DNA of 64,000 bases, taken from the NCBI RefSeq assembly GCF_000661915.1, contig NZ_CP007509.1, positions 2,807,501-2,871,500 on the forward strand, written 5' to 3'. A program made the translations under genes and the position numbers. Below are positions 34,778 to 45,940 of this stretch, piece after piece. Below the pieces are notes generated by a model. That model saw nothing but the letters and a program-made list of their open reading frames with translations. It was not told the origin of the DNA and ran no database searches. Within the stretch, counting starts at the first letter, position 1; every line of letters starts with the position of its first letter. The stretch comes from Stutzerimonas decontaminans (GTDB lineage Bacteria > Pseudomonadota > Gammaproteobacteria > Pseudomonadales > Pseudomonadaceae).

Positions 34778-35081
34778 TTATAGCAGTCAGTTGAGTAAAG
34801 GAATCTGCCAGCACTACTGAAGGCGATCTGGGCCCAACCAATGATGGACGTGAGCTAGCCGCTGCTTTCGGCCAAAAGCAGCCGCCCGAAGCCGTCTACG
34901 AAAAGAAGGTCTACTCACAGTATCAGTCAATCCGCTTGAAACACCTTGCGACCTTTCCTCGATTGAGAAGCCACAAATGCACCTCTAGAGTTGCCTCCGC
35001 AACGCCGGGCCCCTCTGACAGCTAACCGCTGCCATGTCGGAGTTGCAGTTTGCACAACTTCGACACTTAGAGGAGGGGCTC
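34778..35081. other. Non-coding stretch at the left end of the island
   Basis: No gene is supported in these 304 bp. A small inverted repeat CTGCTTTCGGCCAAAAGCAG lies near 34862-34881; related TTTTGGCC motifs recur in the island. The final bases hold the AGGAGG ribosome-binding site of the broken terC. Confidence 0.5.
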
Positions 35082-35727: not shown

Positions 35728-35809
35728 TTGGCTGGCAGAGTGCGTGGTTTGTAACCATTTGGAGCAGACTACGATACGGCTAATTATAGTTGGCCGCTTT
35801 TGGCCGGTT

Positions 35810-35836
35810 AGCGACGGTCTGACTTCGACCGTCGCT
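35810..35836 (-). terminator. Perfect hairpin after the recombinase gene
   Basis: A 10-bp perfect stem AGCGACGGTC (35810-35819) with 35827-35836, loop 7 nt, overlaps the left inverted repeat and lies nine bases past the recombinase stop. There is no T-run, so it may instead be a recombinase-binding structure. Confidence 0.4.
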
Positions 35837-35844
35837 ATACATGG

Positions 35845-36465
35845 TCAAACCTCGGTCTGCTCCGCCATTTCCAAGGCGTCATCGACCTCAATCCCGAGGT
35901 ATCGGACAGTGCTCTCAAGCTTCGTATGGCCGAGCAGCAATTGAACCGCACGCAGGTTCTTCGTCCTGCGATAGATCAGTGATGCCTTCGTACGTCTCAT
36001 TGTGTGAGTGCCATACATGGCTGGATCAAGGCCAATGGCTTTCACCCAGCCTTTGACGATACGGGCGTATTGACGAGTGGAGAGATGGTCAGAGGTATGC
36101 AGCCGGCTCGGAAAAAGGCAGTCCTCGCTGCGGAGCTGGGCTTGATGTATCCAGGCCGCGAGAGCAGACCGTGTTTGCTCAGTGATCTCGAACTGCACTG
36201 GCCGCTGCGTTTTCTGCTGCATCACCATGGCTCGTGATGACAGGTTTTCGCCATGGGCAACGTCGCGCACACGGAGCTTGGTTAAATCGCAGGCTCGCAG
36301 CTTGCTGTCGATGGCTAAATCGAAGAGCGCTAGATCTCGACTTCTCTCGGCGATTTGCAGCCTCACCCGGATTGCCCAGATATCTCTCAGGCGGAGCGGG
36401 GCCTTCTGTCCGACTAATTTTCCTTTGTTCCAGGGCTGATGGCTGTAGGTAGCAATGGTGTTCAT
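35845..36465 (-). CDS. Compact tyrosine recombinase/integrase (catalytic domain only)
   Basis: A 206-residue protein carrying the full tyrosine recombinase catalytic set: box I Arg in SKLRACDLTKLRVRDV, HTMRRTKASL (His-x-x-Arg), LLGHTKLESTVRYLG with the second His and the nucleophilic Tyr. It lacks the N-terminal SAM-like core-binding domain of phage integrases and is far shorter than integron IntI. The start at 36465 has AGGAGGAC just upstream. Similar short recombinases are scattered in pseudomonad genomes; their substrates are not known to me. The flanking inverted repeats suggest that it mobilises its own unit. Confidence 0.85.
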   Translation of the reverse strand: MNTIATYSHQPWNKGKLVGQKAPLRLRDIWAIRVRLQIAERSRDLALFDLAIDSKLRACDLTKLRVRDVAHGENLSSRAMVMQQKTQRPVQFEITEQTRSALAAWIHQAQLRSEDCLFPSRLHTSDHLSTRQYARIVKGWVKAIGLDPAMYGTHTMRRTKASLIYRRTKNLRAVQLLLGHTKLESTVRYLGIEVDDALEMAEQTEV

Positions 36466-36538
36466 GGCAAGTCCTCCTGGTGTGGGAGGACAAGGATGGT
36501 TGGCCGGAGCAATGGTCGCTAACCGGCCAGAAGCGGCC

Positions 36539-37045
36539 ACTAATTTCTTGGCAATCAACAGCAGAAAAAGCATTATGGAAACAACTGCTCACGCGCAGTC
36601 CCATCTTCGGCGGCATGGATGCCTTGCTTATCTCACACAAGCATTCATTCCTGCTAGCTTTGGCGACATGCTGTGAAGCGCGGGCTTATGCCGCATTCGG
36701 CCGCCCTGGCTTATACCGCGTTCGATATAACGTCGCAGCAGAAGGGAGTGAAAGATGCATAAAACACTGATCCGCAAGAGAAAAGTCAACATTGTTAGCG
36801 AAATGTTAGGCTGCGTATTAGTCGAGCGTTCGGTCTAATCACTGTTAGTGGCTTTTCTCCAGGTCATGTCAGGGTCACGAACGTTTGAAGTAATCCAGCA
36901 GTAATCCGACAGCTCCAGTGTTCGGCTAACGCCGTAGAAAGCACAATCTAGAGGTTGATTAACGAGATAGTAGATGGTCCGGTGAAACCGACTAAGAGAA
37001 AATTGTGAGTCTGTAACTGACGTTGTGACGCGGCCCGGAGAAATT
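36539..37045. other. Region without a confident gene between recombinase unit and cassettes
   Basis: These 507 bp are of lower GC and hold only fragments. A 27-codon frame at 36755-36838 has a plausible GGGAG site but nothing else in its favour. GTTAGGC at 36805-36811 matches the attC right-core consensus GTTRRRY, but I could not find a paired left core or stem. Probably remnants of degraded cassettes. Confidence 0.4.
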
Positions 37046-37525: not shown

Positions 37526-37733
37526 TGCACAGCACGCGGTTAGACGTCACCTGCTGGTTGCCTGAACTAGAGAGGCAACCACTCCGCAGAGAATGTAGGC
37601 GGCCAACGCTTCATGGGAGCCTGCTTTGGGCAAGAGCCAACGTCACGGGCGTCTGCCACTAACCAATCCAAGCATAGCGACACCATTTCGGTTGCGGCTT
37701 CGCCTTCACTACAAAGCTGCGCGTGTTGGCGGC

Positions 37734-37740
37734 GTTATGC
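37734..37740 (+). other. attC-type right core half-site before the acetyltransferase cassette
   Basis: GTTATGC fits GTTRRRY and lies at the point where a cassette boundary is expected, one cassette length before the attC at 38240. The preceding 80 bp include a CACTAAC that might be the left core, but the two do not fold into a clear stem, so only the half-site is reported. Confidence 0.35.
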
Positions 37741-38273
37741 GCATCCATAGAGAGGGTACTCTTATTATTGAAATCAGGAAGGCAGAAAAAGCGGACGTTC
37801 CTGCGATACTCGACCTTGTTCGAGGAAAAGCGGAATTCGATGGGTGTTTGAATTCGCTTCAATCTACGGAAGCTGACATTGAGGAAGCTTTCTTCTCCGA
37901 ACAACCCAAGGCGTTTGCGCTCTTGGCCATGAAGTCAGGCGAGGCCGTGGGTATCGCGACGTACTACAGTATCTATTCCACGTTCATTGCCAAGCCTGGC
38001 ATCTGGCTAGACGATCTGTTTGTCTATCCGCAGTTCCGGGGAAGCGGTGTGGGCGAAGCTCTACTCTCAGAGCTGTGTATCCTCGCTCAGAATACTGGCT
38101 GCGGGCGTATTGACTGGATCGTGGCTACCGACAATGATCGAGGAAGGAGCTTCTACGAGCGCTCGGGCGCTCGGATATTCGAAGAGGTACGGCGTGCCCG
38201 GTTAGATGAATGTGCGATCAACGCACTTGCAGAGAAAGCGCATAACAAAGCAATGCACCCGACAAGCGGGTGA
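37737..38273 (+). CDS. GNAT-family N-acetyltransferase, integron gene cassette
   Basis: A 178-residue GNAT protein: IEIRKAEKADVPAILDLVR, then AVGIATYYSIYSTF, the acetyl-CoA pyrophosphate-binding motif A FVYPQFRGSGVGEALLSEL and the C-terminal VATDNDRGRSFYERSGA. The substrate is unknown. The only in-frame ATG (37737) lies within the GTTATGC core; a non-ATG start near 37755-37770 would fit the family better. The C-terminus NKAMHPTSG is translated from the attC site, as is common for cassette-encoded proteins, and the stop falls inside attC (38240-38287). Confidence 0.8.
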   Translation: MRIHREGTLIIEIRKAEKADVPAILDLVRGKAEFDGCLNSLQSTEADIEEAFFSEQPKAFALLAMKSGEAVGIATYYSIYSTFIAKPGIWLDDLFVYPQFRGSGVGEALLSELCILAQNTGCGRIDWIVATDNDRGRSFYERSGARIFEEVRRARLDECAINALAEKAHNKAMHPTSG

Positions 38274-38287
38274 TTGCGGCGTTAGGC
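38240..38287 (+). repeat. Integron attC site (48 bp) after the acetyltransferase cassette
   Basis: The left core GCATAAC and right core GTTAGGC frame an imperfect stem: GCAATGCACCCG pairs with CGGGTGATTGC, leaving one extrahelical G, the feature that orients strand choice in attC sites. At 48 bp it is shorter than most known attC sites. Confidence 0.75.
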
Positions 38288-38338
38288 ACAGTCAAACACG
38301 CAACAATCCAATTCTTTCAACCCAGGGGTCTCCCAACT

Positions 38339-38899
38339 ATGAAAGTCAAACTTGTAGCATTAACAGCATTAGTCGCACTTACCTCAAATATTGCGAACGC
38401 AAACGAGCCCATCGTTGTAAATCAGGCAGTAACAGAGAAGGAAGCATTAACAGCTCAGCAAGCATGGTGTGCTGCTCTTCTTGATATCAACGCCGCATAC
38501 GAAAAGGATGGAAAAGTAGCAGCGAGAGCATTGGCCGAGAAAGTCATAGATTCCGCTTACGCCTACCAAATGGGCGCAGTACTCTTTAAGCCTACGCTCA
38601 CGGTGAACCCTCAAACATTTCGCCCCACACGTGCCGGTGCGCTATCTTATTTCGTTGGCGGTGACCCATCCTTCCCTGCCGACACAGGTTTTGCTCTAAA
38701 AGGCTGGAGAAAATGTGAGCCTGTCACTTCTGCTATTTTTCTTGATGGCAATAGCGCAATTACTATGGGGAAAGTTCACTTCACAGATAAAAATGGGAAA
38801 GTGACTACCGTTGACAAAACGTGGGGTTACGTTAAAGACGATGCGGGAAATTTGCGCATTAACCTTCACCATTCATCATTGGAGTACCAACCTAAGTAA
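38339..38899 (+). CDS. Exported SnoaL/CaMKII-association-like protein, integron gene cassette
   Basis: A 186-residue protein with a signal peptide (MKVKLVALTALVALTSNIANA). The mature part has QQAWCAALLDINAAYEKDGKVAARALAEKVIDSAYAY, SYFVGGDPSFPADTGFALKGWRK and ends GNLRINLHHSSLEYQPK. The cystatin-like order and the terminal HHSS are those of periplasmic NTF2/SnoaL-like proteins related to the CaMKII association domain (moderate confidence). The gene is AT-richer than the chromosome and is contained entirely between two attC right cores (38281 and 38984), so it is a complete cassette with almost no promoter of its own. Confidence 0.75.
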   Translation: MKVKLVALTALVALTSNIANANEPIVVNQAVTEKEALTAQQAWCAALLDINAAYEKDGKVAARALAEKVIDSAYAYQMGAVLFKPTLTVNPQTFRPTRAGALSYFVGGDPSFPADTGFALKGWRKCEPVTSAIFLDGNSAITMGKVHFTDKNGKVTTVDKTWGYVKDDAGNLRINLHHSSLEYQPK

Positions 38900-38932
38900 A
38901 TCCGCTATAAACCCATAGGCAGTGGAGTTGTT

Positions 38933-38990
38933 GCCTAACAAGTCATTCCAGCGGACTGCCTACGGCATCCGCTGAATTCCAACGTTAGGT
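38933..38990 (+). repeat. Integron attC site (58 bp) after the exported-protein cassette
   Basis: Left core GCCTAAC (38933-38939), right core GTTAGGT (38984-38990). The inner stem CAGCGGACTGCC / GGCATCCGCTG has an unpaired C, and the loop is TAC. Length, cores and extrahelical base are those of a textbook short attC. Confidence 0.88.
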
Positions 38991-39047
38991 TATCCGAGCA
39001 AAAGTGACCCGCCCCTCATTCCTCAGTCACTGTGAATGTCCGCTTCT

Positions 39048-39233: not shown

Positions 39234-39489
39234 GACTCCAGCCTATGGCGACTGGCCGCCCCCGGCCACGACCTGTCGCTCGAATTTCCTGACTGAACGG
39301 CAGGAATAGGCGATGTTAGTCATTCACGCCCCATCTCGTGAATGACCGCTTCGATTGGAGCTGGCCAGGCTTCGTTTCAGAGCAACGCTCAATGACTTAG
39401 CCGCATCTACCGTCTGTTGCTGGACGCCTCGGGTTATGCTGAAGCAGTTTTCTTGGTATCAGTTGGCGTCAACTACCTAATCCATTCAC
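39234..39489. other. Upstream region of the STAND NTPase gene
   Basis: Non-coding as far as I can see. It holds a 9-bp perfect inverted repeat TCATTCACG (39320-39328) with CGTGAATGA (39337-39345) and an 8-nt spacer, about 145 bp before the NTPase start, a possible operator. No convincing promoter or Shine-Dalgarno sequence was found. Confidence 0.4.
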
Positions 39490-42400
39490 ATGGCTCCAAA
39501 AATGTCCAAGAAACCGAATCCATCAACCTCTGTAGCTCCTGCAACTGCGCCGGCGGAAGGTGAACGTCGAGCACTCCGTGGATACATTGGCCAGTACGAG
39601 CGGGCGGGCGCTGCCATTTATGCTGCGCTCGAGCGCGACGAGCTGCTCTGGATCGGCGTCGCAGACCGCAACGCGGGTATTGCCGACGACTTGGTGCTCG
39701 GTTTCGATGGGGTGGTGGTCGGTCACCAGTTCAAGACGTCCAAGTTCCCAGGCACTTTCACTGTTGAGACGCTGTTTACTGGTGCCAACGGCCTGTTGAG
39801 GCCCCTGGTTCATGCTTGGCAGTGCCTGCGCAAGGACAACCCGAGAAGCCGGGTCGAGATTCGCCTGGTTGTTAATGACTTTCCGTCGATTACTGACAAG
39901 CCAGGCGATGGCACGCCGCCCCACAGCGCGGCATTTCTTGAGCAACTCCAACAGCATCCAAATCGGCCGCTAGCGGATTGGTACACGCAGGAATGGAGTC
40001 GACTGATCAACCACCTGCGCCGTGAAGCCGGCCTGGACGATGACGACTTCGAATTTTTTTTGCACAGCCTCCGTGTGGTGTGCGGAGCTGCGGCGGACTT
40101 CATCCAGTCGCACAAATTGAACGCCGAGCAGGCGCGGCAGGCATCCGAGATTGCAAGCGTACTGCCCAAGCTAGTCGCCGATGCCCGCGACAAAGACAGG
40201 TGGACGCGTGACGAGCTGCTTCGTGAGCTTGGCTGGCGCGATCCCTCCAAGACGCTGCTCATCCACCGGTTCCCAGTCGGCGCCTATGTTCAGCGCAACC
40301 GTGATACTGAGGCCAAGCTGCTAGCCGCGCTGCATGCCGCCGACCAGGGCTACGTCTCACTCATAGGACCGCCTGGCTCCGGGAAGTCCACTCTCCTGCA
40401 GGTTGCGCTGGCCACTGAGGCTAATATCCGGCTCGTTCGCTACTTGGCGTACGTGCCAGGTGCTGCTCAAGGCGTGGGTCGCGGGGAGGCCGACAACTTC
40501 CTGACTGACGTCGGCACGCAGTTACGCAACAGCGGTTTGGTTGGACTTCGTCTTCGCGACGACTCGCTGCATGAGCGCCGAGAGCAGTTCGGCGTCCTGG
40601 TACAGCAGGCTGGTGAACGCTTCGACCGCGACGGGATCCGAACAATCATCGTCGTCGACGGGCTCGACCATGTGCCTCGCGAAGAGCGGCCGACCAATTC
40701 GCTTCTGGGCGAGCTGCCTCTTCCCGCTGCCATCCCCAACGGGGTTGTGTTCATCCTCGGCACGCAGCGGCTGGATCTCGCGAATCTGAAGCCCGCAGTA
40801 AGAGAGCAAGCGGAGAAAAGCGAGCGACAGGTTCTCATGGGACCTCTCGGCCGCGAGGAGGTCGCCCGGATGGCAGAGGCGCTTGGCCTGCCTGCCGAGA
40901 TTCCAAGATTGGATCTAAGCAATCTATCGCATGGCCACCCGCTGGCAACGCGCTACTTAATTCATGCGCTGTTGCACGCGGACGAAGCCGGCCGTAAGCA
41001 CCTTCTCAGCGGTGGGATGCCGTTCGACGGCGATATTGAGACCGTGTACACCGCTGCTTGGCGCGAGATCGCAAGCGATGTCGATGCCATGGACGTGCTG
41101 GGCTACATCGCTCGTGCTGAGGCACCTGTGGACCTGCGGCTGCTGGCTACAATGGTCAAGGAGTCCGCGATTGAACGCGCTCTGATCGTTGCACGGCACC
41201 TGCTCCGTAGTTCATCCCAGGGGTGGAGCGTCTTCCACAACAGCTTTCGGCTGTTCGTCATCGCTCAACCTCGAACCCGCCTCGGAAGCGTCGATGCCGA
41301 ATACTCGCAGCGCGTGTACCGCGACCTCGCCCAGTTGGCGAAGAACGCGCCGCCCGAATCGGCGCAGTACTGGCTTGAGTTGCGCTACCGCGCCCGTGCC
41401 GGCGACGGTGCCGATGTACTTGCGCTGGCGATGCCCGCTCGCTTCAGGCAGCAACTGGCTGACGGGCGTTCTATCGCCGAGATCCACGCCGATATCCGCC
41501 TGGCTCTGCTGGCAGTGCGTGGAACGCACGATGCGACCGCCTTCTCACGGCTGCTGCTGTGTCGTGACGAAGTGGGGCGGCGGGAAACTGCCCTTGAGTA
41601 CGCCAACCAGCTTCCGCTGGCGATGCTAGCGGTTGGGGACATTGATGCAGCCCTGGCCTTCGTGCAGTACTTCCCCAGCCAGGGCTACGAGATCGTCGAC
41701 GCCCTGTTAGCGCGAGGGGACTTCGAGCGGGCGAAGGAACTGTTTGAAAGCCTCGAGCCACTGTCGCAGCTCCATACGTCCAAGTTCCAGAACCACGGGC
41801 ACGACCACAACATAACGGAATTCGAGAGGTGGGCAAGGCGCGCCGTCCACTTCCGAGACACCGAGCAGATCCAGATAGCGATTGACCACCTCGCCGCAGA
41901 GGGGCTACGCCAGCCCGAAAAGGTGGATCCGCAAACTGTCGCCGCGCTGCAACTGCATCTGAGGAGGGAAGCCGCAGAGGCGATGCTCCTTCAGAAGGTT
42001 GGCGCCGATCCACAAGACCTCTGCAGCAAGCTCGGGGTAGCCAACGAAGACAAACCTTCGGTGATGGTTCACGCAGGTCTTGTGGCCAGTCGGCGTGGCG
42101 ACGTTGCGCAAGCGCTTGCCCTGTTTGATGCTGCCGCCGCCCTTCCTGGCTTCGTAGAGGTACCCAACGGCTACCGACGCCGGATGGCACTAATTGCATT
42201 CGAAGCTGACCGTCGTTACCTAGCCGAGGCCCTGTTCGACAAGCTGGTCGCACCGATGATCTCTATGTGCGACGACGAGACGGACCTGGCTGGGCTGGGT
42301 AATCTGGTCGGTGCGGTGATGCATCACGCGAGGCTTTGCACGCTGCTCAATAAGCCGCTGCCAAGCGCGATACCGTCGAAGCACACCTTCCTTCATCCGT

Positions 42401-45400
42401 TTCAGCAGCACGCCTCGACGATAGGCGTGCTTCTAGGTCGCGCCGCCGTCGACAACGCGTCCGTGCCGGCCGGCAGCATCCAGGACGAAGCCCGCATTGC
42501 CCTTGGGTACGTCCTACGTCTGACATCAGAAGGCGGCAGCGAGTCATATCGCATCCAGCAGGCCTTCAAAGCGATCCCCATGCTCGTGCCAGCGCTGCTG
42601 AGGCTCGGCGCCAAGCGCGGCGAGACTGAGTACCGTGCGGTACTTCGGGAAATTGACGCAGCCATCGCCTCATCGACGCTGGGGGGCACTGCGTACCTGC
42701 GACGCAGATTGGCCGTCGATGCGTATAGGGTTGACGGTGACCGGGTGGCGGCCGTCGATCGACTCAACGCACTCGTGGCGGAGCTTCAGGAGAGCACGCC
42801 GAGCGAGCAGATCAACGGGTTGGCCGATCTGGCCATCGCGTTGGCTGCGGTCGGGGACTTAGAGCGGGCCAAACAGTTGCTGGCGACGGTTCCCGAGCAA
42901 TGCCTTGGCTACGCGTTGGCCCCCAAGAAAGACCCGCAGTACGCAATCTGGCGAGACATCCTGGTCCTTGCGAACGCCGCTGACCCGGAGAACCGTGTCA
43001 AGCGAGTATCGACCTTAATGCGCCAGGTCGGCGGCATGACCGAAACGGAAGGGTCGTCGGCCGCGCATCGTTTGACGATGTCGCTAATCGAGGAAGCGAC
43101 GCAGGTCGGACCTCGCTTCGGCTTCGAGGTGTCAAAGACACTGGCGGATTGGAATCTGATTGGCTGGCCGAACCGTGTTGACCTGCTCATGACGGGGATG
43201 GTGCGGCGAAGCCCTGAACTCGTCTTGGCTTGCGCGACGGTCTGGTGCGGTCTGTGTCTGCCGTTCTACATGGAACCGTACTACCGGGACCCGCACCACG
43301 TCGGTGACTTCATCGACATCGCCGCCGACGCCGCGGGACCTATACAGATTGAACCGCTCGCGCGGATGTTTTTGGCGGTGATCGAGGTAGCCAGCAGGGC
43401 ACACGAGAGGGTCGGACTGCTCCAGCGCCTTCGCACCGCTGCCGGAAGACATGGGTTTTCATCTGCCGAGCTCGACGCCGCCGTAGCCCGGTGGACGTCA
43501 GAAGCGCCGGAACCTCGACACTCGTATACGCCAAGCAAGTACGACTCGGAGACCACTCTCGAGCAGCTTGAGCGCGCGTTTGAATCGGATGGCGACGAAC
43601 TGAACTACAACGCCCCGTACCGTTTCAGAGATCTGGCCGAGACGGCCCCGCTTCATATGGCGCGGAGGATATTTGAGCGCTGGCAGGTCTTGCAGGACGA
43701 CGCGCGCTGCCGCTTCCTGATGGTTAAAAGGTTGGCTGCGGCGGGGGAGGTCGAGTACGCCAAGAAGCTGATGCAAGGCTACGAGTCAGGCAAGGACCCC
43801 TGGAGTTCCTGGAGCCAGTGGATGGGTGGCGGTAAGTTCTTCTACTTTGAGGCGAAGAAGCTCTTGCAGGGACCATCCACATGCCCAGCCGCCTTCGAGA
43901 ACATTGTCGATTCAGTAACGGCGGGCCAGGAGAACACCCAGTCACTGCTGACAGAGCTGGATTCGATACTGCCGGTAATCAGCGCGACGCCGGATTGGCC
44001 GGCCATCTGGTCGTTACTTGAGGAGCAGATGGCCTGCACTCGCGAGTTCCAGCTGGGGCGACCCTTCCAGCCGAGCGAGCTACCGCTCAGCGACACGGAA
44101 CTTTTGGAGGATCTGCTGCACTTTGCCTATCGGCTGCCCGTTGCAGAAGTTCAGCGACACGCACGCAATTGCACGTTGAGCCTGGCAAGGCAAGCCGGAC
44201 TTGGCCAAGCTTTGTTCAAGTCCCTTATGCGGCGACTTATAGCCGGCGAATTAGATGCCCCCTTGCATGCGCTCGGAACTCTGCTGGCTGCTGACAGCGC
44301 GGACCTTGCCCCCGAGTTGGGCAGCGCCGTGGCTGCGTTGGTCAGTCACCGTGACATTGCGGTGGCAGAGTCAGCCGCGCTCTTGTCGCATCGGTGGAGG
44401 CAGGCTGTCCCCTTGGACGCGATACCACTGCCGCTTTTCTATCGCCTTGAACTCGAGCACCCGCCAGAGGGTGACCAGGCATTCACGGACGAAAGAACTG
44501 GTGCAATGCGCGTCGAGTCGCCGCTTGGCTGGACCGAGATGTTGCGCTCGACGGCACGTCACATCGCGAAGGCGGCAGGCATTGAGGAGATGACAGTCCG
44601 CCGACGCGCGGCGATGTTCATCCAGGATTGGGGTGGACTTGAGGCATTCGGGCCCTCTGGCACCAAAAGGCTTGAGACTCAGCTTCGCGTGCTCGACATG
44701 CAGATCACTTACCTGAAGCCCCACGCCTACATTGCCCTTGCCGCACTTCGCCACGTCGCAGGAGAACTGCGGCTGGCCGGCAAATTGAAAGGCAGCGACA
44801 TGCTCACGCTTTTGGAACGTTTGGGCTGCCCGCTTCCGCCTCGACCGCTGAAGCTCCCACGAGGGCGCCCCGAGTGGATCCGAATGCCGCTGTTGAACCG
44901 AAGTGCGGGTTGGTCCGAGCGAGAACGGAAATGGATTGACGAAGTCGACGGTGATGTTGCCCCCTTCCCAGCAGACAGCCACGGCCAAGTCGTGGCCGAA
45001 GTATCCCGCTTCAAGATTCTCAAGCCACGGCTGTCGGAGCACCGTCTCTACCGCTTTAGAGCACCCTCGGCAGAGATTGACAGTGAAGACTTCGACGACT
45101 GCTATGCCAGGCTGCCCATCGCTGTTTGGCTTGGCCAGTACTTCGCATTTGACAATGATCTGGCGCCAACGCTGGTAAGGAAAGTTGTTTGCTCGGTGGA
45201 CATGGGCTTTGACGCAGCGGCCTATTCGTTCGCTTTGTGCCCGAACTGGGTGAAGCGGCTTCGCTGGAGCGCGCATGACGAGGAGCCCAGCGTCTTCCTC
45301 GACCCGAGCGGCGCTGTGGTCGCAAGGCTCTGCTGGTGGCGTGATGCTGGCCCGGTTGATATCGATGCGGAGTCCCTGTGGGGAGAGGGTTGCTACCTCG

Positions 45401-45549
45401 TCCTGACGTCATTAGGCATCGAACAGGTCACCACTGCCCGTGGGAAGCCGGACCTTGACATCAGCGTGTTCGCAAGCAGGCAGATCAAGCAACCGAGCAG
45501 CTACGGGGAGTCTCTCTTGAAGACGGCGAAGAACGGTTACTCAATCTAA
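39490..45549 (+). CDS. Avs-like STAND NTPase with N-terminal Cap4/DUF4297-type nuclease motif (putative antiphage protein)
   Basis: A 2019-residue protein. Residues about 25-130 (LRGYIGQYERAGAAIYAAL, then ADDLVLGFDGVVVGHQFKTS with Asp66-67 and Gln80-x-Lys82) have the D...QxK pattern of Cap4/DUF4297-type PD-(D/E)xK nucleases. A P-loop NTPase follows: Walker A GPPGSGKST at 293-301, Walker B IIVVDGLDHV at 386-395, and helical NACHT/STAND features (LSHGHPLATRYLIHALL). From about 650 to 1900 are degenerate helical repeats with TPR-like units (GDIDAALAFVQYF, GDFERAKELFESLEPL, GDLERAKQLLATVPEQ). This nuclease-STAND-repeat order is that of Avs proteins, which detect a phage protein and then cut DNA. 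It stands alone in the island. The start may be Met1 or Met5; no clear ribosome-binding site is visible. Confidence 0.75.
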   Translation: MAPKMSKKPNPSTSVAPATAPAEGERRALRGYIGQYERAGAAIYAALERDELLWIGVADRNAGIADDLVLGFDGVVVGHQFKTSKFPGTFTVETLFTGANGLLRPLVHAWQCLRKDNPRSRVEIRLVVNDFPSITDKPGDGTPPHSAAFLEQLQQHPNRPLADWYTQEWSRLINHLRREAGLDDDDFEFFLHSLRVVCGAAADFIQSHKLNAEQARQASEIASVLPKLVADARDKDRWTRDELLRELGWRDPSKTLLIHRFPVGAYVQRNRDTEAKLLAALHAADQGYVSLIGPPGSGKSTLLQVALATEANIRLVRYLAYVPGAAQGVGRGEADNFLTDVGTQLRNSGLVGLRLRDDSLHERREQFGVLVQQAGERFDRDGIRTIIVVDGLDHVPREERPTNSLLGELPLPAAIPNGVVFILGTQRLDLANLKPAVREQAEKSERQVLMGPLGREEVARMAEALGLPAEIPRLDLSNLSHGHPLATRYLIHALLHADEAGRKHLLSGGMPFDGDIETVYTAAWREIASDVDAMDVLGYIARAEAPVDLRLLATMVKESAIERALIVARHLLRSSSQGWSVFHNSFRLFVIAQPRTRLGSVDAEYSQRVYRDLAQLAKNAPPESAQYWLELRYRARAGDGADVLALAMPARFRQQLADGRSIAEIHADIRLALLAVRGTHDATAFSRLLLCRDEVGRRETALEYANQLPLAMLAVGDIDAALAFVQYFPSQGYEIVDALLARGDFERAKELFESLEPLSQLHTSKFQNHGHDHNITEFERWARRAVHFRDTEQIQIAIDHLAAEGLRQPEKVDPQTVAALQLHLRREAAEAMLLQKVGADPQDLCSKLGVANEDKPSVMVHAGLVASRRGDVAQALALFDAAAALPGFVEVPNGYRRRMALIAFEADRRYLAEALFDKLVAPMISMCDDETDLAGLGNLVGAVMHHARLCTLLNKPLPSAIPSKHTFLHPFQQHASTIGVLLGRAAVDNASVPAGSIQDEARIALGYVLRLTSEGGSESYRIQQAFKAIPMLVPALLRLGAKRGETEYRAVLREIDAAIASSTLGGTAYLRRRLAVDAYRVDGDRVAAVDRLNALVAELQESTPSEQINGLADLAIALAAVGDLERAKQLLATVPEQCLGYALAPKKDPQYAIWRDILVLANAADPENRVKRVSTLMRQVGGMTETEGSSAAHRLTMSLIEEATQVGPRFGFEVSKTLADWNLIGWPNRVDLLMTGMVRRSPELVLACATVWCGLCLPFYMEPYYRDPHHVGDFIDIAADAAGPIQIEPLARMFLAVIEVASRAHERVGLLQRLRTAAGRHGFSSAELDAAVARWTSEAPEPRHSYTPSKYDSETTLEQLERAFESDGDELNYNAPYRFRDLAETAPLHMARRIFERWQVLQDDARCRFLMVKRLAAAGEVEYAKKLMQGYESGKDPWSSWSQWMGGGKFFYFEAKKLLQGPSTCPAAFENIVDSVTAGQENTQSLLTELDSILPVISATPDWPAIWSLLEEQMACTREFQLGRPFQPSELPLSDTELLEDLLHFAYRLPVAEVQRHARNCTLSLARQAGLGQALFKSLMRRLIAGELDAPLHALGTLLAADSADLAPELGSAVAALVSHRDIAVAESAALLSHRWRQAVPLDAIPLPLFYRLELEHPPEGDQAFTDERTGAMRVESPLGWTEMLRSTARHIAKAAGIEEMTVRRRAAMFIQDWGGLEAFGPSGTKRLETQLRVLDMQITYLKPHAYIALAALRHVAGELRLAGKLKGSDMLTLLERLGCPLPPRPLKLPRGRPEWIRMPLLNRSAGWSERERKWIDEVDGDVAPFPADSHGQVVAEVSRFKILKPRLSEHRLYRFRAPSAEIDSEDFDDCYARLPIAVWLGQYFAFDNDLAPTLVRKVVCSVDMGFDAAAYSFALCPNWVKRLRWSAHDEEPSVFLDPSGAVVARLCWWRDAGPVDIDAESLWGEGCYLVLTSLGIEQVTTARGKPDLDISVFASRQIKQPSSYGESLLKTAKNGYSI

Positions 45550-45940
45550 GCCATGCAGATTCAGTGGCGATGTCAAGCGAGAGTGGCCGTGCTGGCTTGA
45601 GCTGGCTGTCCCGGAGGGCTGCTTCCGGTCGGTGGCTAGCGTTCATAGTACCCTAACGATTGATCGCTCCCGCTGCGTAGCAGCCATCGGACTTTCCAAA
45701 TCGAACTTCTGCTTTGGGGCGATTTGAGCCGATTACGACAGGCAGCTTTTGGCCGAAAACGGCCGTCAGAGGATGGCTGTCGATAGCTGCATCTGTTCGG
45801 TGCCCCGACTTGGCCAAGCAAAGTTTACTGTCACGCCGGCACACTGAGTCATCTACACCACTGGAAATGCCCTTCAGGCGCCGCTAGAATTGCGCACTTT
45901 TTGATCAGCCGCCGAAATGGCGGGGCCTCTGAGGATTATC
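45550..45940. other. Right end of the island and rimO leader
   Basis: No gene is supported in these 391 bp. They contain the palindromic GGCCGAAAACGGCC motif near 45751, and the rimO promoter: TGGAAA (45862-45867), 17-bp spacer, TAGAAT (45885-45890). A short hairpin GCCGCC/GGCGG and GAGG ribosome-binding site precede the rimO ATG. The left rimO remnant has the same promoter layout. Confidence 0.55.

Follow-up and report, generated by a model that had tools for sequence, protein, structure and literature searches.

A giant nuclease-like STAND protein of Stutzerimonas decontaminans, related to Avs1b and carried on a candidate one-gene mobile unit

How should a solitary gene for a protein of 2019 residues be placed, if it has the anatomy of a phage sensor and lies in the accessory part of a genome? 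The gene is found in Stutzerimonas decontaminans (contig NZ_CP007509.1, positions 2,807,501 to 2,871,500 of the forward strand, a stretch of 64,000 nucleotides here called the window), where it occupies positions 39490..45549 of the plus strand. It is an intact open reading frame (ORF) with an ATG start, exactly as the original prediction for this DNA had described it, and is referred to below as the giant gene. Its single-gene product consists of a putative nuclease, a STAND (signal transduction ATPases with numerous domains) ATPase and a helical sensor. Judged from sequence comparisons, it is likely to be an antiphage protein acting by abortive infection, a sister to Avs1b in which the protease has been replaced by a Cap4/DUF4297-like nuclease in cis.

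A conserved family of giant proteins

The window protein matches 605 proteins at an E value of at most 1e-3 (120 best listed), and the ratio of nonsynonymous to synonymous substitution rates (dN/dS) between the window copy and seven relatives is 0.16 to 0.27, indicating purifying selection; both results argue that this is a real gene. The length is conserved, with 1950 to 2060 residues in 112 of the best 120 of the 605 matches. Searches with a divergent member from Nitrosococcus and with residues 600-2019 of the window protein yield 478 and 212 matches, respectively (120 listed in each case), and the only match of the giant protein in its own genome is itself.

Conservation was assessed on an alignment of 230 full-length members, composed of 226 of 242 proteins with a length of 1950 to 2110 residues, the window's own included, and four plasmid-encoded proteins (L036, L037, L038, and L040 in our numbering of loci). 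D66 and D67 are each kept in 229 of the 230 sequences, and Q80, K82, K299, S300, and D390 are kept in all of them, so that the six residues singled out in the original prediction (all of these except S300) are nearly invariant. The proposed effector-STAND-sensor plan is likewise supported by the domain order and the motif residues. Of the more than 1200 residues of degenerate helical repeats that were also claimed, Pfam shows faint tetratricopeptide repeat (TPR) matches only.

The STAND ATPase module

The hallmark set of STAND NTPases comprises the Walker A, Walker B, and GxP motifs. Residues 263-640 (40276..41409, plus strand) carry a Walker A motif GPPGSGKS (residues 293-300), the motif VVDGLD (residues 388-393), and the motif GHP (residues 482-484), with K299, S300, D390, D393, and P484 present in 230 and H483 in 228 of the 230 sequences. 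The Pfam matches of the window protein, AAA_16 (E value 1e-5) and AAA_22 (4.5e-5), are both below the gathering score, and the relatives L038 to L040 match AAA_22, NPHP3_N, or NACHT above the Pfam cut-off. The Avs1b models of PADLOC (9.6e-19) and NCBIfam (1.7e-17) match the ATPase of the window protein. The motif set is complete, as expected for the P-loop STAND module that had been predicted around Lys299 and Asp390, and these motifs and model matches identify the central module as a STAND ATPase.

Relation to Avs1b

The window protein is matched best by Avs1b in both PADLOC and NCBIfam, and Avs1b also heads the PADLOC matches of three divergent relatives and of a relative from E. coli. The NCBIfam score is 62 bits, compared with a curated cut-off of 1500. 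A profile of four Avs1b proteins (from C. necator, Chimaeribacter, V. parahaemolyticus, and Priestia) aligns colinearly with the family profile over 1279 columns with an E value of 2e-39, pairing window residues 282 to 1599 (approximate limits) with Avs1b residues 211-1571. With the ATPase cut off, the C-terminus matches the same profile with a P value of 5e-5 and a score of 54.9, compared with at most 26.9 in 25 shuffles. By this profile comparison, residues 641 to 1600 or thereabouts, the helical region (41410..44289, plus strand), appear to be homologous to Avs1b. The N-termini of the family and of Avs1b do not match in the profile comparison (P value 0.4).

Two controls count against the helical part of this relation: single Avs1b sequences match the C-terminus with P values of 0.014 to 0.30 only, and a control STAND protein (L042) matches it with a P value of 0.012, out of register. 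The two better single-Avs1b matches have similar offsets. On these comparisons, we regard the homology to Avs1b as firm for the ATPase and as less firm for the helical region.

The giant protein and Avs1b (2019 residues versus 1910 to 1939 in the four proteins) share the effector-STAND-helical order, whereas Avs1b begins with a trypsin-like protease and the giant protein with a nuclease-like domain; a Pfam search finds no protease domain in the window protein. Avs1 also includes the avs1a and avs1c genes, the former encoding a metallo-beta-lactamase fold (MBL) nuclease, on which the Avs1b protease acts, and the giant gene has neither beside it. The space of about 200 bases on each side of the gene, inside the mobile unit described below, is too small for either, and no MBL is found among the six upstream proteins given to Pfam, in a search for avs1a limited to the locus and not extended to the rest of the genome. 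An assignment to Avs1 proper was rejected, since the N-terminal protease and the adjacent partner genes are missing.

Avs3 and Avs4 are single-gene nuclease-STAND-TPR proteins, with the nuclease in cis at the N-terminus and a long helical C-terminus, as in the giant protein. The Avs2 to Avs5 models are present in both PADLOC and NCBIfam, and no Avs model other than Avs1b matches the window protein at an E value of 1 or less, which sets it apart from Avs3 and Avs4. The family resembles Avs3/Avs4 in anatomy and aligns with Avs1b in the ATPase and, less securely, in most of the sensor.

The last 420 or so residues (about 1601 to 2019; 44290..45546, plus strand) evolve faster. They do not align to Avs1b and belong to the least conserved parts of the protein, and when five regions were compared, their dN/dS (0.19 to 0.25) was the highest in all three comparisons made. 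This C-terminal part is the likeliest candidate for a ligand-reading tip.

Which ligand might it read? The original prediction could not assign the protein to any of Avs1 to Avs5 and suggested a new sensor target. Profile comparison does allow a placement, with Avs1b as the nearest type for the ATPase and for the greater part of the helical portion. A new target therefore lacks positive support, and it would be more economical to suppose a shared one, terminase. An Avs1 from Erwinia is described as being activated by terminase, after which its protease opens a separate MBL nuclease by cleavage (PMC12799240). A second source describes Avs1 to Avs4 as killing through nuclease activity once terminase, portal, or Ksap1 has been sensed, and Avs5 as having a Sir2 effector and sensing JADA (PMC12931631).

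This last case lends some weight to the strongest rival explanation, in which the giant protein is the same kind of STAND defense protein and its sensor reads another cue, such as portal, an early phage protein, or plasmid or other invading DNA, with terminase being inert. JADA is a quite different phage protein, the C-terminal residues with their high dN/dS do not align with Avs1b, and relatives that extend over 80% or more of residues 1-650 occur in 15 plasmid records. The colinearity with Avs1b, in the ATPase and over the greater part of the helical region, speaks against this rival, subject to the two controls described above. We consider a different cue unlikely, yet the most serious of the alternatives.

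The N-terminal nuclease-like domain

Residues 1-262 (39490..40275, plus strand) contain the motif series GxxxQ (residues 31-35), D66-D67 (39685..39690, plus strand), a putative metal-binding acidic pair, and Q80-F81-K82 (39727..39735, plus strand), a putative QxK catalytic motif. D66, D67, Q80, and K82 are also invariant in an alignment of 37 rows that includes distant members 24 to 30% identical to the window protein. The Cap4/DUF4297 double-stranded DNA endonucleases (Pfam ID PF14130) have the same motif order of GxxxQ, D(D/V), and QxK. An hhalign comparison of the 230-row profile with six Cap4/DUF4297 proteins gives a score of 28.3, whereas none of 60 column shuffles exceeds 21.0 and the reversed profile reaches 14.0, and the DD and QxK residues fall in the catalytic register; other profile comparisons with six Cap4/DUF4297 proteins (P values 0.024 and 0.01) align the same motifs. 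The Cap4 model PF14130 itself matches 1 of 12 member N-termini with an E value of 0.003 and the Nitrosococcus homolog with an E value of 0.038, below the gathering score in both cases. The family thus differs from Cap4/DUF4297 in staying below the Pfam gathering score wherever tried and in being fused to a STAND module. The more distant STAND relative L042 has a PDDEXK/Cap4-type N-terminus (PADLOC, 3.2e-9; PF14130, E value 0.014, below the gathering score). It is encoded on a Pseudoalteromonas plasmid (L042:5760-11483), where genes for a reverse transcriptase and a SLATT protein lie close by.

Several results speak against a nuclease assignment. Pfam and NCBIfam recognize nothing at the N-terminus of the window protein, sequence searches of the PDB return no nuclease and only P-loop or chance matches, and the AlphaFold2 model of residues 1-630, built from close homologs only, has a predicted local distance difference test (pLDDT) score of 53.8, too poor for a claim on the fold. 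For residues 37-128, this low-confidence model suggests helix 37-48, strands 52-57, 68-72, and 75-77, helices 92-97 and 103-116, and strand 123-128, the order of elements expected of a PD-(D/E)xK nuclease. Taking the motifs, the hhalign comparison, and the weak PF14130 matches together, residues 1-262 are probably a PD-(D/E)xK nuclease of the Cap4/DUF4297 type. The earlier claim of such a nuclease is thereby supported, though weakly, by the motif order and a shuffle-controlled profile match, and is not borne out at the Pfam threshold.

The domain might instead have RNase or some other enzymatic activity, or serve as a pseudo-nuclease adaptor, with a different effector action. This explanation draws on the silence of Pfam and NCBIfam for the window protein and on the poor structural model; the retention of DD and QxK in 229 to 230 of 230 sequences and the Cap4 match in catalytic register make it improbable.

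Distribution and neighboring genes

Within the host family, 9 of 298 sampled genomes carry a match at an E value of at most 1e-50, including the genome of the window, two in which the match is partial, and one in which it is 44% identical. Residues 1-650 match 10 of 398 genomes in a sample of the phylum, 4 of them strongly (the own genome included) and 6 weakly, at the level of the ATPase, and an N-terminal profile finds only the own genome among 369 of the class. None of 50,697 phage records matches residues 1-650 at an E value of at most 1e-3. An IMG/VR contig (L046) with a close relative, 87% identical over residues 1-270, may be a misassigned island or hold a phage-borne copy.

Residues 1-650 match 41 plasmid records. 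In the 15 mentioned above, a single place accounts for 80% or more of the query, at 31 to 65% identity; these plasmids come from Enterobacteriaceae, Sphingobium, rhizobia, Nitrosococcus, Rhodococcus, and Vibrio; the remaining 26 match in the ATPase part only. A relative of a Klebsiella copy (97% DNA identity) is carried by 11 of 5426 complete E. coli genomes. In the three of these that were examined, it lies between ydeT and hipA, beside genes for a DEAD/DEAH helicase and for integrases, and one of the three copies is annotated as a gene for 2021 residues. The homologs in E. coli (L048:10621-20066) and Klebsiella (L035:4555-11183) adjoin a DEAD/DEAH helicase of 1020 residues and may be a two-gene version.

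The surroundings of seven relatives include known defense genes. GajA/GajB (Gabija) lie one gene away from the Sinorhizobium relative, and dsr1 lies one gene away from that of Nitrosococcus. AbiEi/AbiEii are near the Rhizobium relative; PD-Lambda-4, followed by JetD/JetC (Wadjet), is near the Stenotrophomonas relative; JetD/JetC are near the relative in genome G884, and QatA is near that in G903. A type IIG restriction gene is found about 3.8 kb upstream of the Deefgea relative. Among the 12 neighbor proteins scanned with PADLOC, L048:22829-25192 gives no match, the E. coli helicase gives partial helicase or restriction matches only, and L038:657-4721 gives short N-terminal matches to regulator-type models only. 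The seven loci were picked by hand, which tempers the support that they lend to a defense role.

The accessory island with mobile elements described in the original prediction is recognizable in the patchy distribution and, upstream of the giant gene, in a tyrosine recombinase (Pfam ID PF00589) and integron-cassette-like genes, and the defense setting is seen, within the seven chosen loci, near the relatives. A non-defense role, as a STAND regulator or signaling ATPase of the accessory genome, is very improbable, for although STAND proteins include regulators, Pfam finds no DNA-binding regulator domain, the N-terminus is nuclease-like, the presence is patchy, and known defense genes lie near the seven chosen relatives.

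A mobile unit with GGCC-centered ends

Near-identical copies of the giant gene occur in unrelated contexts. In BLAST comparisons of the window with L002 and L010, homology stops at nearly the same points, and with most other relatives it stops elsewhere. A unit of 6479 to 6492 bases is found in five Pseudomonadaceae contexts (the window, L063, L064, L002, and L010), where it runs from GGCC-ACGACCTGTCG to CGACAGGCAGCTwTT-GGCC (GGTC in L002). In the window, the GGCC cores lie at 39264..39267, with inner arm ACGACCTGTCG, and at 45751..45754, with inner arm CGACAGGCAGCTTTT, and the same ends are seen in all five contexts. Outside the unit, the 60-base flanks are 25 to 48% identical, except for the left flanks of the window and L064, which are 65% identical because they have 30 bases up to the next GGCC in common. 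This stretch between two GGCC cores (39234-39263 in the window) is perhaps a remnant of another unit. In a scan of the 540 GGCC sites of the window, with a consensus partly built from the two unit ends, these ends take the top two places. A genome-wide count of the short pattern gave 5+3 hits, compared with 5+4 for the control, and the pattern is thus not specific.

In L063, from the same genus, the unit is 99.9% identical and its right GGCC doubles as the left end of a second unit, which holds a tyrosine recombinase; in the window, the two units are 2.7 kb apart. The recombinase unit of the window (35802..36528, 727 bp) is bounded by GGCC-GGTTAGCGA and its inverse and holds only the gene of a small solitary tyrosine recombinase (35845..36465, minus strand), of about 206 residues from an ATG inside the unit. 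The longest ORF (35845-36573) matches PF00589 with an E value of 4.9e-19. The recombinase has a match in 34 of 56 genomes of the genus. Of 30 loci examined, with the window among them, 23 have both ends, GGCC-GGTTAGCGA and TCGCTAACC-GGCC, allowing for no more than 2 substitutions, and in 21 GGCC is exact at both. The element was noted at window 35802-36528, in L063, and in L067-L096, at varied GGCC-centered places. The flanks mostly differ among the loci, a few pairs sharing one, and resemble the dyad CCGCTTnT-GGCC-AnAAGCGG. Upstream of the recombinase unit, at 34850-34895, lies a GGCC-centered dyad, AGCCGCTGCTTTC-GGCC-AAAAGCAGCCGC, a possible unused target site.

We read the giant gene as a putative one-gene cassette that would be moved in trans by the solitary recombinase. 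Three observations count against this. A 271-base join of the outer flanks finds no clean empty site in 56 genomes of the genus, a result that is not decisive; besides the two flanks in the window itself, the join matches short pieces, which include dispersed repeats. The copy in G903 has only the left end in common and that in G884 has neither end, and the recombinase copy of L063 carries a stop codon.

Integron cassettes and pdif modules have one gene per unit, recombination-like bounding sites, and end-to-end joining, as seen in L063. The giant unit differs from both in that its ends are GGCC-centered, of the same kind as those of the small solitary tyrosine recombinase, and not of the attC/intI type. 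The giant gene was rejected as an integron cassette because its ends, GGCC-centered on both sides in five contexts, are not attC sites. A GNAT gene and an ORF of 209 residues (37626-38992) lie upstream of, and outside, the giant unit. They are followed by attC-like sites (about 38246-38290 and 38935-38992, respectively), and by this resemblance we take them to be integron-type cassettes. The gene downstream of the giant gene is presumably rimO-like.

Proposed mode of action and implications

In an uninfected cell, the giant protein would be idle. For the infected cell, we infer a trigger, oligomerization, nuclease activity, and cell death as follows. The helical C-terminal half would bind a conserved phage protein, for which the large terminase subunit is the first candidate, terminase being the trigger of one Avs1. 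ATP binding would drive oligomerization, the N-terminal nuclease domains would be brought together and degrade DNA, and the cell would die or stall before phage release.

A wider reading joins the two parts of this work. The family would be a large, unnamed Avs clade in which the two-protein relay of Avs1, from protease to nuclease, collapsed into, or was preceded by, one nuclease-fused protein, so that a single sensor lineage would show a natural change of effector. The unit would be a Pseudomonadaceae one-gene cassette with GGCC-centered ends, mobilized in trans by the tiny solitary tyrosine recombinase, likewise a cassette of this type, and the two would form a gene-capture system distinct from both integrons and pdif modules. 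We hold this combined reading tentatively, being slightly more inclined to doubt than to accept it. Among the top-ranked matches in the open-access literature, we found no name for the protein family or the mobile element, which does not establish their absence from print.

The comparisons put a large family of unnamed proteins beside Avs1 and offer a test of modular immunity, namely, whether a sensor lineage that fires a protease elsewhere can fire a nuclease once its front end is swapped. Intact relatives in E. coli, such as that of E. coli AR_0061 (L048:14001-20066), make standard phage panels usable for this purpose. If the cassette reading holds, it would also illustrate the movement of a 6-kb defense gene on its own from genome to genome.

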